From Anaerobacillus alkalidiazotrophicus (GTDB lineage Bacteria > Bacillota > Bacilli > Bacillales_H > Anaerobacillaceae), in the NCBI RefSeq assembly GCF_001866055.1, contig NZ_MLQS01000001.1, positions 1,417 through 65,416 on the forward strand: DNA of 64,000 bases, read 5' to 3'. Both the position numbers and the translations under genes were made by a program. The notes beneath the pieces were generated by a model that was given only the letters and a program-made list of their open reading frames with translations, ran no database searches and was not told the DNA's origin. Positions 34,174-46,428 of the stretch are shown here, in pieces. How positions within the stretch are numbered: the stretch's first letter is position 1; every line of letters starts with the position of its first letter.

Positions 34174-34192
34174 GATGGAAAGGGGTTTAGAT

Positions 34193-35320
34193 ATGGAAAT
34201 ACTCATTGAAAATGCAACAATTTACCCAATTACCTCTGAAAAAATACAAAAAGGTTCATTATTCATTAAAGACGGGAAGATAGTTGCAATAAAAAATTAC
34301 ATTGAACCTACATCTAATATGACAGTTATAAACGCTGAAAATAAATATTTACTCCCTGGTTTCATAGATGCTCATACTCATCTTGGTTTATATGATGAGG
34401 GAACAGGGTGGGCTGGAAATGATGCTAACGAAACGATTGATGCTCTAACACCTCACATTCGCGCCATTGATGGTGTGTACCCATTAGATATCGGTTTTAA
34501 AGATGCTATCAAATATGGTGTTACTACGGTGCATGTCATGCCAGGAAGTGCAAATGTGATTGGTGGGACTACATCAGTAATCAAAACGGTGGGAAAGAAC
34601 ATTAAGAAAATGATTTTAAAAGAAAGAGCAGGATTGAAAATCGCCTTAGGGGAGAATCCTAAGCGTGTTCATAGTAATTCTAATAAAAATGATATTACTC
34701 GAATGGGGATCATGGGAATGCTTAGGGAAGTTTTTTATCAAGCTAAGCGAAATCAAAACAAAAATGATCTTCGAATGGAACCTATCATTTCTGCGCTTAA
34801 TCGCGAAATACCTGTTAGAATCCACGCTCATCGTGCTGATGATATATTAGCTGCAGTTCGTTTTGCCCAAGAGTTTCAATTAGATTTGCGAATCGAACAT
34901 TGTACAGAAGGTCATTTAATTGCAGAGGAATTAAATGAGTATCCATTGCAAGTAACAATTGGGCCAACATTAACAAGGCGTTCTAAAATTGAATTAAAAA
35001 ATAAAACATGGGATACGTATCGAATACTTTCTGAACTTGGCATAAACGTATCGATTACCACTGATCATCCTTATACACCCATTCAATATTTAAATATTTG
35101 TGCCTCTATCGCTGTGCGAGAAGGTTTACCTGAAAAGAATGCTCTTGAAGGTATAACAATTAATCCAGCAAAAAATTTAGGTGTCGCAAATCGGGTTGGT
35201 AGCTTAGAAGAAGGGAAAGACGCAGATGTTGTACTTTGGAGTCACCATCCATTTCATTATATGGCCACCCCAATTATGACCATAATAAATGGGGTAATAA
35301 TTTACAAAAAAAACATATAA
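34193..35320 (+). CDS. Amidohydrolase (imidazolonepropionase-like)
   Basis: A 375-residue metal-dependent amidohydrolase. The HxH metal pair is H61/H63 (in DAHTHLGLYDEG). Further likely ligands are in VRIHAHRADD, LRIEHCTEGH and the TTDHPY motif with the catalytic aspartate. The C-terminal part (NPAKNLGVANRVGSLEEGKDAD) is the typical barrel-closing end. Closest overall character is the imidazolonepropionase-like group, but the substrate is undetermined. The ATG at 34193 is chosen; GAAAGGGG lies upstream. Confidence 0.82.
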   Translation: MEILIENATIYPITSEKIQKGSLFIKDGKIVAIKNYIEPTSNMTVINAENKYLLPGFIDAHTHLGLYDEGTGWAGNDANETIDALTPHIRAIDGVYPLDIGFKDAIKYGVTTVHVMPGSANVIGGTTSVIKTVGKNIKKMILKERAGLKIALGENPKRVHSNSNKNDITRMGIMGMLREVFYQAKRNQNKNDLRMEPIISALNREIPVRIHAHRADDILAAVRFAQEFQLDLRIEHCTEGHLIAEELNEYPLQVTIGPTLTRRSKIELKNKTWDTYRILSELGINVSITTDHPYTPIQYLNICASIAVREGLPEKNALEGITINPAKNLGVANRVGSLEEGKDADVVLWSHHPFHYMATPIMTIINGVIIYKKNI

Positions 35321-35495
35321 AAAAAGGTTCCATTTTGATACGAATTCGATTATGATGATATAGGATTTTCAAGTAATCACAAAAATGTGTAAGTAAATTT
35401 AAGTTTTTGTGCATATAATTAACCAATAACAACATATTTGACAATATTTCATGATTTATTTGAGTTTTTCAAGTTTTTTACAACAGAATAGGCAA
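35321..35495. other. Upstream part of the GNAT gene leader
   Basis: AT-rich sequence between the amidohydrolase stop and the tRNA-like structure. It contains a TATAAT near 35415 and a TTGACA near 35440 but no well-spaced pair, so the promoter is uncertain. Confidence 0.35.
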
Positions 35496-35563
35496 GAATG
35501 GGAAGGCAATTGGTTGCGCCACCAGATTACTGGTCCTAGTGGGTTCGATTCCCACCCCGAATT
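35496..35563 (+). ncRNA. tRNA-like structure in the GNAT gene leader
   Basis: 68 bases with the marks of a tRNA. A perfect T-arm, GTGGG-TTCGATT-CCCAC, spans 539-555 of this kilobase. A D-arm GGC...GCC has GG in its loop at 35512-35513. A 5-bp anticodon-like stem ACCAG/CTGGT closes on only four bases (ATTA), and the acceptor-like strand CCCGAAT pairs with GAATGGG through three G-C and two wobble pairs. It cannot be a normal tRNA because the anticodon loop is too short and the acceptor stem is poor. Pseudo-tRNAs have been described in Bacillus cereus. It sits 69 bases before the start codon of a GNAT gene, on the same strand. Confidence 0.65.
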
Positions 35564-35624
35564 TGATACGAAATTTCATTAAATTCGAGGGGTAGGCCTT
35601 TTTCTGCCCCTATGTGGAGGGGTA
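35555..35624 (+). promoter_or_regulatory. Mutually exclusive helices controlling the GNAT ribosome site
   Basis: The 3' strand of the tRNA-like domain (CCC-GAATTT, 555-564 of this kilobase) can pair with AAATTCG-a-GGG at 35581-35591, giving 10 bp with one bulge. Alternatively AGGGGTAG (35588-35595) pairs with CTGCCCCT (35604-35611), and that C-tract can instead pair with the SD AGGGG at 35618-35622. The four alternating C- and G-tracts allow two exclusive folds, one with the SD free and one with it masked. This is inference from complementarity. Confidence 0.45.
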
Positions 35625-35631
35625 AAAAAAG

Positions 35632-36183
35632 ATGATTAAAAAGCGCGAATTAACGGATTGTCAAAAATTGTACGAATTAATGATTGACCCAGCTGTTTTC
35701 CCATTTGTTCGGCAAAAAGCACATTCTTATGAAGAGTTCCTTTTCCTAACTAAGCAAACAATTGAGGCTGAAGAACGAGGCGAAGTCATTTCACGAACAG
35801 TTGTAGACGAGTGGGGTAACCCAATTGGTACCATTAATTTATTTGACATTAACAATCATGCTGGTTTTTTAGGTACATGGTTAGGTAAACCATATCACGG
35901 GAAAGGCTACAATAATATTGCAAAAGATGCATTTTTTAGTGAGTTGTTTTATGAACTTTCTATAGAAGCAGTATTTATGAGAATTCGAACAGAGAATGTT
36001 CGGTCTAGAAAGGCTGCAGAAAAGTTACCTTATGCAGCTTTAGCAAATGAAACTCGAAAAGATATTTATAATGAAATTAATCCCAATTCAAAGATTTATG
36101 ATTTATTTCAAATTGAAAAAGATCAATTTACTTTATACCAATACAGACAACAAGCAGATGTATTCGAGTTAAAAGAAGCATAG
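35632..36183 (+). CDS. GNAT family N-acetyltransferase
   Basis: A 183-residue acetyl-CoA-dependent acyltransferase of the RimJ/RimL-like type: a beta-rich core (SRTVVDEWGNPIGTINLFDI), LGTWLGKPYHGKGYNN providing the acetyl-CoA pyrophosphate loop near residue 84, and VRSRKAAEKL with the conserved asparagine-rich step (RTENVRSR). The usual RxxGxG loop reads HGKGYN. Substrate unknown. The ATG follows GGAGGGG with 9-base spacing, and the leader carries a tRNA-like element and competing stems, which suggests regulation at translation. Confidence 0.83.
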   Translation: MIKKRELTDCQKLYELMIDPAVFPFVRQKAHSYEEFLFLTKQTIEAEERGEVISRTVVDEWGNPIGTINLFDINNHAGFLGTWLGKPYHGKGYNNIAKDAFFSELFYELSIEAVFMRIRTENVRSRKAAEKLPYAALANETRKDIYNEINPNSKIYDLFQIEKDQFTLYQYRQQADVFELKEA

Positions 36184-36384
36184 TACAGTTTTACTTCAGT
36201 CCTACACATTCAATCATAAAAACTAACCATCTTCAATTTCTTTTAATTTTAAATTGTGGTCTTTTGCCACTTTAAAAATGAATTGAAAAACGAGCTGCCT
36301 AACAAGCTCGTTTTTTTAGTATAAAAAATTGGTCGGATAAGCAAACTACAACAGAAAAAGCTAGAGCTTAAAGGTGGTTATATT

Positions 36385-38447: not shown

Positions 38448-38951
38448 ATGAAAAACAATTATCATATGAATCAAACATTAACGATAGAAAAACCAACAGT
38501 TGCAGATGGAGCCTTAATGTGGCAACTAGTAAAACAATCGACACTTGATCTCAATTCTCCCTATAAATATATCATGATGTGTGAGTATTTCAGAGAAACG
38601 TGTGTGGTTGTAAAAGAAAATGATGAATTACATGGTTTTATAACTGCTTTTATTCCCCCAGACCGTCAAGACGTTATTTTTGTATGGCAAGTTGGAGTTG
38701 ATCCATCACAACAGGGTAAAGGTATAGCATCCAAAATGCTCCAAGAGTTACTTTCAAGACCTGCTTGCAAAAATGTACGATATTTAGAAGCAACTGTTAC
38801 CCCTTCTAATATTGCCTCACAGTCATTATTTCGAGGTTACGCACGAAAGAATCAAACAAATTGTGTTGTGAAAGAATGTTTCTCTGCTGACCTTTTCCCT
38901 GGTAAAGGTCATGAAGAAGAATTAACATTTCGAGTCGGACCTTTATCCTAG
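38448..38951 (+). CDS. ectA: L-2,4-diaminobutyrate acetyltransferase
   Basis: A 167-residue GNAT enzyme that acetylates L-2,4-diaminobutyrate, the second step of ectoine synthesis. The motif VWQVGVDPSQQGKGIASKML (around 83-102) contains the acetyl-CoA loop Q-x-x-G-x-G, and EATVTPSNIASQSLFRGYA is typical of EctA rather than other GNATs. Length matches the family. It is the first gene of ectABC. The ATG follows GGTGAT with short spacing; a stronger SD lies further upstream (see 38102-38447). Confidence 0.95.
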   Translation: MKNNYHMNQTLTIEKPTVADGALMWQLVKQSTLDLNSPYKYIMMCEYFRETCVVVKENDELHGFITAFIPPDRQDVIFVWQVGVDPSQQGKGIASKMLQELLSRPACKNVRYLEATVTPSNIASQSLFRGYARKNQTNCVVKECFSADLFPGKGHEEELTFRVGPLS

Positions 38952-39036
38952 TAAACAGATCAGAAAACTTTCATTCATTTAGTAATACCTAATAATTTAA
39001 AATGATTTCTAATAAATCGAGGAGGTTTCATTAAAC

Positions 39037-40320
39037 ATGGTAAATAATGATTTGAAAATATTTGAGGAATTAGAATCAAGTGTACGTAGTTATGTAAGAA
39101 GCTTTCCAACTGTATTCAAAAAAGCAAAAGGCTATAAAATGTGGGATATTAACGGAAAGGAATACATCGATTTTTTTGCAGGTGCTGGTGCCCTAAATTA
39201 TGGACATAATGATGAAAAAATGAAAAAAAAGCTACTAGAATATATAGCACAAGATGGTATTGTCCACTCTCTTGATATGGCCACAGAAGCGAAAGCAAAT
39301 TTCTTAGAGAAATTTAACGAAGTAATTCTAAAGCCTCGTAACATGAATTACAAAGTAATGTTCCCGGGACCTACTGGAACAAACACTGTAGAGAGTGCTT
39401 TGAAACTTGCACGCAAAGTAACTGGCAGAACAAATGTTATTTCTTTTACAAACGGATTTCATGGAATGACGATTGGTTCATTATCTGTTACAGGCAATTC
39501 TGCAAAACGCCAAGGTGCTGGTATTCCTCTTCAACACGTAGTAACAATGCCTTACGATAATTTTGTTAGTAACAATCTCGACACCGTGGAGTATCTCGAA
39601 CGCTTTTTAGAAGATAACGGTAGTGGCGTTGACATCCCAGCTGCTATGATTCTCGAGACAGTCCAAGGTGAAGGTGGTATTAATGCCGCAAAGTTCGAGT
39701 GGCTAAAACGTATTGAAGAAGTATGTAAACGTTGGGGCATTTTACTTATCATTGATGATGTGCAAGCAGGAGTAGGTCGTACAGGTACTTTCTTCTCATT
39801 TGAAAAAGCAGGTATCAATCCTGATATTGTTTGTCTATCAAAATCAATTGGTGGAAACGGTCTACCACTAGCACTTACATTAATTAAGCCCGAACTAGAC
39901 ATTTGGAATCCGGGTGAACATAACGGAACATTCCGAGGAAATAACTTTGCTTTCATAACAGCAACAGAATCTCTTACTTATTGGGAAACTGATGAGTTTG
40001 AAAAAAGTATTGAAGAGAAGTCAGTAAAAATTACTGAATTTTTAAATAATATCGTTGAAAAATATCCAGAACTTAACGGGAAAGTAAAGGGTCGTGGCCT
40101 TATGCAAGGAATTAGTACTCCGATTGAAGGTCTTGCTAGTGAAATTGCTGCTAAAGCATTTGAAAATGGATTAATTATGGAAACAGCTGGACCTGAAGAT
40201 GAAGTATTCAAATTATTCCCACCTCTTACTATTGATAACGAAGGTTTAGAGAAAGGGTTTAAAATCATTGAAGAAAGTGTTCGTAGCTTAGTAGCATCGA
40301 AACAATTAGTTGGACAATAA
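39037..40320 (+). CDS. ectB: Diaminobutyrate-2-oxoglutarate transaminase
   Basis: A 427-residue class III PLP aminotransferase that makes L-2,4-diaminobutyrate from aspartate semialdehyde with glutamate, the first committed step of ectoine synthesis. Family motifs are [20 protein letters not shown] (111-130), [25 protein letters not shown] (238-250) and the PLP lysine K269 in [11 protein letters not shown]. It follows ectA by 85 bases with AGGAGGTTTC ahead of the ATG. Glutamate demand links it to gltB and nitrogen supply. Confidence 0.96.
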
Positions 40321-40365
40321 AAAAAACAATAAAAATTTTCTAGATATTTTCGAGGAGGAACAGTA

Positions 40366-40761
40366 ATGAAAGTTGTAAAATTAGAAGATATTATCGGAAC
40401 AGATCAAGAAGTAAAAGGTGAAAACTGGACTAGTCGTCGTCTACTTTTAGCGAAAGACAATATGGGCTATTCGGTACATGACACAATCATTAAAGCTGGA
40501 ACTGAAACACATATTTGGTACCAAAATCACCTTGAAGCTGTATATTGTATTGAAGGGGAAGGTGAAGTTGTTACTTTAAAAGATAATAAAGTTCATCCAA
40601 TTACAGCAAACAGCATTTATGCCCTTGATGAAAATGATGAGCATTTACTAAGAGCAAAGACAACTATGCGTATGGTATGTGTATTTAACCCACCAATTAC
40701 CGGAAAAGAAATCCACGATGAAAATGGAGTTTATCCACTTGTAGAAGAAACAAAAAAATAA
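40366..40761 (+). CDS. ectC: L-ectoine synthase
   Basis: A 131-residue cupin-fold enzyme that closes N-gamma-acetyl-diaminobutyrate to ectoine. Metal and substrate residues sit in [20 protein letters not shown] (around 47-66) and [12 protein letters not shown] (85-96). The C-terminus carries [18 protein letters not shown] typical of the family. It ends the ectABC operon, 45 bases after ectB. No ectD hydroxylase follows, so only ectoine is predicted from this locus. Confidence 0.96.
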
Positions 40762-46266: not shown

Positions 46267-46428
46267 CCTTTAACCGTTGCCAAAACATTATAAAACTCTA
46301 TAAAAATTTGTTTCTTTCTTGCTTCCACCTGTCCAATTTTGCCGAAGCTTCTCTCGTGTGTTGTGACAGTCCACAAGCGTAAATTCGGGTACAACGAACC
46401 CTACATATTAACAGTGTCTTTTGAGTGA
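46267..46428 (-). ncRNA. Probable TnpB right end and guide RNA (omega RNA) region
   Basis: The 162 bases between the tnpB stop and nifV have the look of an IS605-type right end. On the minus strand there is a small hairpin (GGGTTCGTTGTACCC), then GAATTTACGCTTGTGGACTG and GTGGAAGCAAGAAAG, which resembles the conserved end of IS1341/IS605 elements of bacilli. If so, the scaffold ends near 46311-46320 and the guide would be the flanking bases AAACAAATTTTTATAGAG. The exact boundary and transcription are inference. Confidence 0.5.

Follow-up and report, generated by a model that had tools for sequence, protein, structure and literature searches.

A conserved tRNA-like leader upstream of a GNAT gene, predicted to act as a translational switch

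Described tRNA-like leaders and the layout of the locus

The thrS translational operator of Escherichia coli is an mRNA leader that mimics a tRNA and controls translation, the mimicked part being the anticodon arm read by the encoded synthetase. The yjdF (azaaromatic) riboswitch (RF01764), as presented in the passages cited here, also places a tRNA-like domain in a bacterial mRNA leader; its tRNA-like fold is the ON state and controls access to the Shine-Dalgarno (SD) sequence, which an alternative pairing masks (PMC9142559, PMC4793209), and acetyltransferases are mentioned among the genes under its control (PMC9142559). The pseudo-tRNA tRNA-Other of Bacillus cereus, which has a Trp anticodon and lies beside a thioesterase gene and a genomic island, is a tRNA-like element within a longer regulatory RNA (PMC3399842).

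Here we describe a tRNA-like element before the gene of a GNAT N-acetyltransferase in Anaerobacillus alkalidiazotrophicus. The window is the whole stretch of DNA analysed, 64,000 nt of contig NZ_MLQS01000001.1. Its initial annotation had proposed a tRNA-like leader followed by competing helices up to the SD of the GNAT gene, and order-wide conservation and covariation bear this out. The locus comprises the following parts.

34190-35320: amidohydrolase gene, upstream neighbour of the GNAT leader
35414-35419, + strand: candidate -10 hexamer TATAAT without a good -35 box, a weak call from sequence, about 80 nt 5' of the element
35500-35558, + strand: tRNA-like core (from sequence, covariance model and covariation)
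35500-35502 (GGG) with 35556-35558 (CCC), + strand: acceptor-like stem, 3 bp
35503-35504, + strand: AA junction of the core
35505-35507 with 35518-35520, + strand: D-like stem
35508-35517, + strand: D-like loop with GG
35521-35525 with 35530-35534, + strand: anticodon-like stem
35535-35538, + strand: variable CCTA
35539-35543 with 35551-35555, + strand: T-stem
35544-35550, + strand: T-loop TTCGATT
35559-35586, + strand: AU-rich hairpin, 35559-35566 pairing with 35579-35586, a pairing kept in relatives
35587-35596, + strand: exchange strand GAGGGGTAGG, with CCCACCCC (35551-35558) as its putative OFF partner and the C-tract as its putative ON partner
35604-35611, + strand: C-tract CTGCCCCT, with the exchange strand as putative ON partner and the SD as putative OFF partner
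35616-35622, + strand: SD GGAGGGG (from sequence and folding)
35632-36183, + strand: GNAT N-acetyltransferase gene, 183 aa, PF13302 by profile match, uncharacterised
36288-36318, + strand: terminator-like hairpin and T-run, seen in the sequence 3' of the GNAT gene

Read directly, the core is GGG-AA-GGC-AATTGGTTGC-GCC-ACCAG-ATTA-CTGGT-CCTA-GTGGG-TTCGATT-CCCAC-CCC. It holds the perfect T-arm (GTGGG-TTCGATT-CCCAC) and the GG of the D-loop to which the initial annotation had drawn attention, both within 35500-35558. The 68-base extent first given to the tRNA-like part had to be reduced to this core because the acceptor-like stem is conserved over 3 bp only (GGG/CCC); relatives are 43% identical over the 60 nt just upstream. 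The anticodon-type loop of four bases is present in the window and is no general trait, since this loop (arm length minus 10) measures 1 to 18 nt over 161 distinct cores. Further downstream, the tail GAATTTGA (35559-35566) is complementary to TTAAATTC (35579-35586), GGGGTAG (35589-35595) to CTGCCCC (35604-35610) and CCCCT (35607-35611) to AGGGG in the SD (35618-35622), so that the pairing of G-tract with C-tract and the complementarity of the C-tract to the SD can be read in the window as first annotated.

The element shares with tRNA (RF00005) the cloverleaf order, the canonical T-loop and the GG in the D-like loop. It differs in its 3-bp acceptor-like stem (a 7-bp acceptor is absent in the window), in having neither CCA nor a 7-nt anticodon loop, and in carrying AA at the place of U8, its counterpart by tRNA numbering. 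In the window, ARAGORN made no tRNA call, and no Rfam family reached its gathering threshold at the leader; permissive Rfam searches of 35321-35700 gave only T-arm matches (tmRNA), plus a chance-level snoRNA match upstream. No T-box was matched by Rfam in the window or in the relatives' loci searched. In the eight relatives' loci searched whole, L011 included, default filters left every Rfam family below its gathering score, but with permissive filters the tRNA model reached gathering in 2 of 21 relatives' elements (L011, 32.8 bits; L339, 30.1 bits), and ARAGORN called a tRNA-Lys in 1 of 20 (L326, 16-85, + strand), which is a likely source of false tRNA annotation. Since tRNA finder and tRNA model occasionally accept the element, the masking of tRNA matches may explain why it was overlooked. 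Such calls also speak for a chance neighbour of the GNAT gene, be it a processed small RNA or a tRNA gene that has decayed or been misread. We regard this as highly improbable in view of the purifying selection, the covariation and the linkage to GNAT documented below, of the 1-18 nt loop at the anticodon end, the 3-bp acceptor-like stem and the missing CCA, and of the silence of ARAGORN and Rfam on any tRNA in the window. The short acceptor-like stem and absent CCA also speak against tRNA end-processing nucleases, and hence against the processing nuclease once listed as a conceivable trigger.

By sequence model the element is not a member of yjdF, though it would work like yjdF, with the tRNA-like fold as its predicted ON state. 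The yjdF model gave no match up to E 5 in 35321-35700 of the window or up to E 10 in L011, and R1, our 62-position covariance model of the tRNA-like part, had no match up to E 10 in any of 6 yjdF loci. In yjdF the D-like arm is preceded by a long conserved A-rich junction (UAAAAACAC); in the element, AA stands at this place (159 of 161 cores, with an extra A in the other 2, the search pattern allowing these two forms only), and its T-loop is the canonical TTCGATT. In the published passages the P4/T-arm strand of yjdF pairs with the SD directly, whereas the element would relay the signal through exchange strand and C-tract. The two RNAs coexist as separate entities, as four of the 6 genomes with yjdF RNA among 101 sampled from the order (G046, G064, G066, G085) also carry the present element. 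Unlike the thrS operator, the element has a variable anticodon end and precedes no synthetase gene; unlike tRNA-Other, it precedes a GNAT gene, and the cited passages on tRNA-Other describe no SD relay (PMC3399842).

The element was not described in the literature searched, i.e. titles and abstracts, and the main texts of PMC8632094, PMC11109978, PMC2864571 and PMC6429828 by keyword. For this RNA and this gene no described switch was found there, in keeping with the early statement that none of such build was known before a GNAT gene; a switch of the general kind is described for yjdF (PMC9142559). Computationally, the leader has what riboswitches have in general, a conserved sensor domain and a predicted expression platform with exclusive folds, and it would be a second, apparently undescribed tRNA-like translational switch besides yjdF.

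Distribution, conservation and covariation

When run on 249 sampled genomes of the order, R1 split them into 189 with E 3.8e-16 or better, 38 with E 2.4e-4 or worse and 22 unmatched. Among the weak matches, 7 loci in three genomes were checked, and each coincides with an ordinary tRNA gene (3 Gly, 3 His, 1 Glu). The GNAT gene, called at E<=1e-30, occurs in 193 of the 249 genomes: 189 have both element and GNAT, none the element only, 4 GNAT only and 56 neither, the two genomes absent from the R1 output being taken as G234 and G246 by elimination. The GNAT-only genomes are G035, G077 and G234, of one genus and with GNATs 47-48% identical, and G154. Absence from close relatives had been named as evidence against the initial annotation; the same-genus genomes that lack the element (G003, and G007, which is 62% complete) also lack GNAT. 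Two GNAT matches each at E<=1e-30 were found in G078 and G186, and the single element found in G186 lies beside only one of them.

At E<=0.01, a search at the DNA level detected the element in 47 of 61 relatives, in G020 through a short 3' match only. Across the class, it is present in 22 of 299 genomes, 18 in the order and 4 in one other family. GNAT is present in 77 of these 299 genomes, 58 of them outside the order, where 54 of the 58 orthologues lack the element at the threshold used; the gene therefore does not need the element and has a wider distribution than the leader. Among named genomes, a scan gave at least 120 element matches, and those listed include Bacillus, Priestia, Cytobacillus, Oceanobacillus, Halobacillus, Parageobacillus, Psychrobacillus, Rummeliibacillus and Chryseomicrobium. 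Among the matches listed, 77 of 80 named copies have a GNAT motif at most 560 nt downstream, and the other 3 reach the end of the fetched DNA. Direct reading placed GNAT downstream of the element in 30 of 30 loci and in a further 50, and by coordinates the two are 66-99 nt apart in 16 RNA/GNAT pairs.

The core is much better conserved than its surroundings. Over 155 GNAT genes (4000 sampled pairs), identity is 0.924 in the core, compared with 0.642 for GNAT amino acids, 0.414 for third codon positions and 0.431 for the upstream 60 nt. The T-loop TTCGATT is found in every locus read from BLAST or model hits, which were taken without a core-letter pattern filter. In the 161 distinct, pattern-selected cores the D-like loop is nearly fixed and the distal anticodon-like end variable, and since the search patterns fix most core letters, the invariance counted there is partly selection. 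The conserved letters (T-loop, D-like loop, AA and the first three pairs of the anticodon-like stem) lie on the elbow side. Folding energy is unremarkable within the window (z -1.8 for 35486-35632, z -0.8 for 35496-35563): the element stands out from chance by its conservation and covariation, not by its folding energy.

In an alignment of 90 sequences, the pairs of the tRNA-like fold are formed in 99.4% of cells and 26 cells are double-changed (2.3 in shuffles); for the alternative helix the figures are 93.2% and 78 (18.4 in shuffles). These 90, of 145 keyed elements, were picked for the alternative-helix test with the variable ones first, and had to have a short loop and 7 or more of the 8 AU-stem pairs, a filter that raises the paired percentage of that stem but not the variety of compensatory types. 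Among the 161 cores, T-stem changes include G-C to A-U at the first pair (4 cases) and the third (6) and U-A to C-G at the second (1), and in the same pattern-selected set the fourth pair of the anticodon-like stem changes from A-U to G-C (15), G-U (5) or U-A (4). Permuting the 3' strands lowers pairing from 98.6% to 93.9% in the anticodon-like stem and from 100% to 98.7% in the T-stem. Of 110 elements, 103 keep 7 or more of the 8 AU-stem pairs and 7 have fewer, whereas 7% of shuffles reach that level; the loop of the AU hairpin tolerates inserts, which are long in L020, L141 and L143.

The initial annotation had taken covariation for one fold only as evidence against two exclusive folds. Both helix sets have compensatory changes, but very few of these fall where the alternative helix reaches into the T-stem. 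Most double changes of the alternative helix sit in the AU hairpin and are compatible with both folds, whereas the exclusive part (CCCACCC/GGGUGGG) shows mainly conserved complementarity. In the 90 sequences, two pairs of the exclusive part carry a single double change each, and unpaired cells number 45, 8, 15 and 14 at its four outer pairs. Covariation in this exclusive part is thin. The most evident change there is that of Oceanobacillus oncorhynchi (L227), in which the T-stem changes from U-A to C-G and the exchange strand from GGGUGGG to GGGCGGG, and both folds are kept. Psychrobacillus and relatives have a CCUAC strand with exchange strands of UAGG or GUAG type. Swapping variant T-stem strands and exchange strands gave mixed results. 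The single CCCGC case favours its own exchange strand (7.4 vs 6.36), the CCCAU variants (n=5) score 6.38 with common strands vs 5.96 with their own, and the CCUAC variants (n=8) reach 6.5 with common exchange strands against 4.8 with their own; common T-stem strands pair worse with the exchange strands of CCUAC variants (3.2).

The GNAT of the window is 97% identical to that of the nearest genome, G001, and 80-84% identical to those of named relatives, which include three Anaerobacillus. Its model has a RimL/SpeG/FdhC-type fold at 11-19% identity, with no decisive match. Among solved structures the best profile match is the MccE acetyltransferase (E 2.7e-4), an enzyme that acts on processed microcin C, and RimJ/RimL-type enzymes are also among the best matches. 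It is possible, if doubtful, that the leader responds to a protein, the core being bound by GNAT itself in a feedback loop, or by a tRNA-elbow-binding or modifying enzyme, and the same fold equilibrium being shifted. The element precedes only the GNAT gene in the loci read and the two co-occur almost perfectly, as in autoregulation, and it is the elbow side, with T-loop and D-like loop, that holds the invariant letters, the distal anticodon-like end being variable. Yet GNAT orthologues occur without the element, the fold matches of the protein are enzymes (RimL/SpeG/FdhC-type, 11-19% identity), and with the tRNA-like fold as the predicted ON state, binding of GNAT would amount to positive, not negative, feedback.

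Predicted coupling to the Shine-Dalgarno and candidate triggers

We folded 105 of 110 elements under constraints, omitting the 5 without an assigned start. The mean predicted probability that the SD is unpaired is 0.494 when the tRNA-like fold is forced, 0.212 when the T-arm is blocked and 0.20 in free folding. The predicted change exceeds 0.2 in 57 leaders and 0.1 in 68, is 0.1 or less in 37 and falls below -0.1 in 1; with shuffled linkers (n=159), the mean change is 0.033 and 14% exceed 0.2. Helices were counted in 100 of the 105 leaders, 5 being omitted for a weak AU stem. All 100 have a run of at least 5 consecutive base pairs between exchange strand and C-tract, and in 98 the SD forms at least 4 pairs with some stretch of the linker, but a single C-tract is common to both helices in only 59 when the longest helices are chosen. 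By eye, the C-tract mask is not evident in some leaders (L079, L080, L178, L249). In the window, the last three SD bases stay mostly paired (unpaired 0.13-0.21) when only the tRNA-like fold is enforced, and the SD becomes free (0.43-0.98 unpaired per base) when the helix of exchange strand and C-tract is enforced in addition. The computed coupling thus runs, as a prediction, in the direction first proposed, and the chain of exclusive folds in which the tRNA-like fold would leave the SD open is backed computationally by conservation, covariation and constrained folding.

We put at roughly 70% the probability that the GNAT leader is a cis-acting translational ON switch with the tRNA-like fold as its sensor. 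In the mechanism that we propose, the 5' part of the GNAT mRNA would fold as a compact tRNA-like domain, presumably with an elbow contact, and the AU hairpin would abut the acceptor-like stem. CCCAC-CCC would then be held by the T-stem and the acceptor-like stem, and the exchange strand (GAGGGUGG type) would pair with the C-tract (CUGCCCUC type), leaving the SD free. Upon unfolding, the exchange strand would invade CCCACCC by lengthening the AU hairpin, and the released C-tract would pair with the SD, so that translation drops. By secondary-structure energies, which leave tertiary contacts outside the model, the OFF ensemble is the more stable by a mean of 2.9 kcal/mol over the 105 leaders, and by 4.9-6.1 kcal/mol in the window between enforced ON and OFF ensembles. 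With OFF ahead by about 3 kcal/mol on average, the ON state would need stabilisation by tertiary contacts or a ligand. Conservation, association with a single gene, covariation and the predicted coupling of fold and SD exposure are results of computation; real switching, the elbow contact and the nature of the trigger are what we infer.

By analogy with yjdF, our preferred trigger is a small molecule that would bind the tRNA-like core and that GNAT would acetylate or otherwise counter; a core-binding protein is the main alternative. Conservation of the elbow side, together with the variable far end of the stem and its loop, suggests recognition of the core by a ligand or protein rather than a codon-like reader, and the variable loop argues against anticodon readers as trigger. 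The profile matches of GNAT to MccE and RimJ/RimL-type enzymes raise a further reading, which we judge unlikely: the leader may mimic a tRNA so as to report on the metabolism of tRNA or of translation, with GNAT acting on an aminoacyl nucleotide, an aminoacyl-tRNA or the translation machinery, and its stabiliser would be either an enzyme that binds the core or a metabolite connected with the handling of tRNA. Finally, tRNA-type tertiary folds depend on divalent ions, which counts for a leader with no dedicated ligand, whose tRNA-like domain contacts the ribosome or a translation factor or is a fold sensitive to ions, polyamines or temperature. In line with a direct effect on translation, the cited passages report a 2- to 6.3-fold gain in translation from authentic tRNAs placed in cis, and binding of yjdF to ribosomes when activating ligands are bound to it (PMC9142559). 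This ligand-free alternative seems quite improbable to us, as it leaves unexplained both the conservation of core nucleotides beyond the needs of the elbow and the conserved relay to the SD.

If the preferred reading, a ligand-stabilised ON switch, is right, the leader would join yjdF as a second class of tRNA-shaped translational switch, its tRNA elbow being the more canonical of the two. The presence of the element in about three quarters of the sampled order genomes (189/249) makes its ligand, and the function of the uncharacterised GNAT, directly testable.

Transcription unit and other features

Of 206 distinct upstream regions from relatives, 95 have a promoter-like motif of GTATNATA type before the element, vs 22 in shuffles, and an A-tract and a CTATTTCCTTTTT-like stretch lie upstream of it. 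The motif is found 20-110 nt, mostly 40-90 nt, before the element, which would place the tRNA-like part near the 5' end of the mRNA. The window's own upstream region lacks the conserved motif, having only the TATAAT at 35414-35419, and a promoter consensus scan found no + strand promoter at the leader. The conserved block of A-tract, CTATTTCCTTTTT and GTATGATAC in these 95 regions (e.g. L012, L014, L041) has a poor -35 box and may be an unusual promoter or a regulator site. At the other end, a hairpin and T-run lie within 150 nt after GNAT in 39 of 53 testable named relatives, and in the window a terminator scan placed the hairpin after the gene on the minus strand only. The terminator-like hairpin suggests that the GNAT transcript is monocistronic.

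Some GNAT leaders outside the order, read by eye, have other structures. The leader of L154 (G257) has no T-arm, a similar AU hairpin and competing GGGUAGG, CCUUACCC and GGUAGG strands, and is possibly the same platform with another sensor. In another family (L157, L171, L172), a different conserved stretch with GCGGTC precedes the SD and carries GTTCGAAC in L157 and L171 and GTTCAAAC in L172.

Elsewhere in the window, Rfam identified a partial 16S rRNA gene (RF00177, 1-225, - strand), cut by the window edge, and a RAGATH-18 RNA (46316-46377, - strand; 58.6 bits, above gathering). Three adjoining genes at 38448-40761 (+ strand) resemble those of what we take to be the ectoine pathway (acetyltransferase, aminotransferase, ectoine synthase-like).
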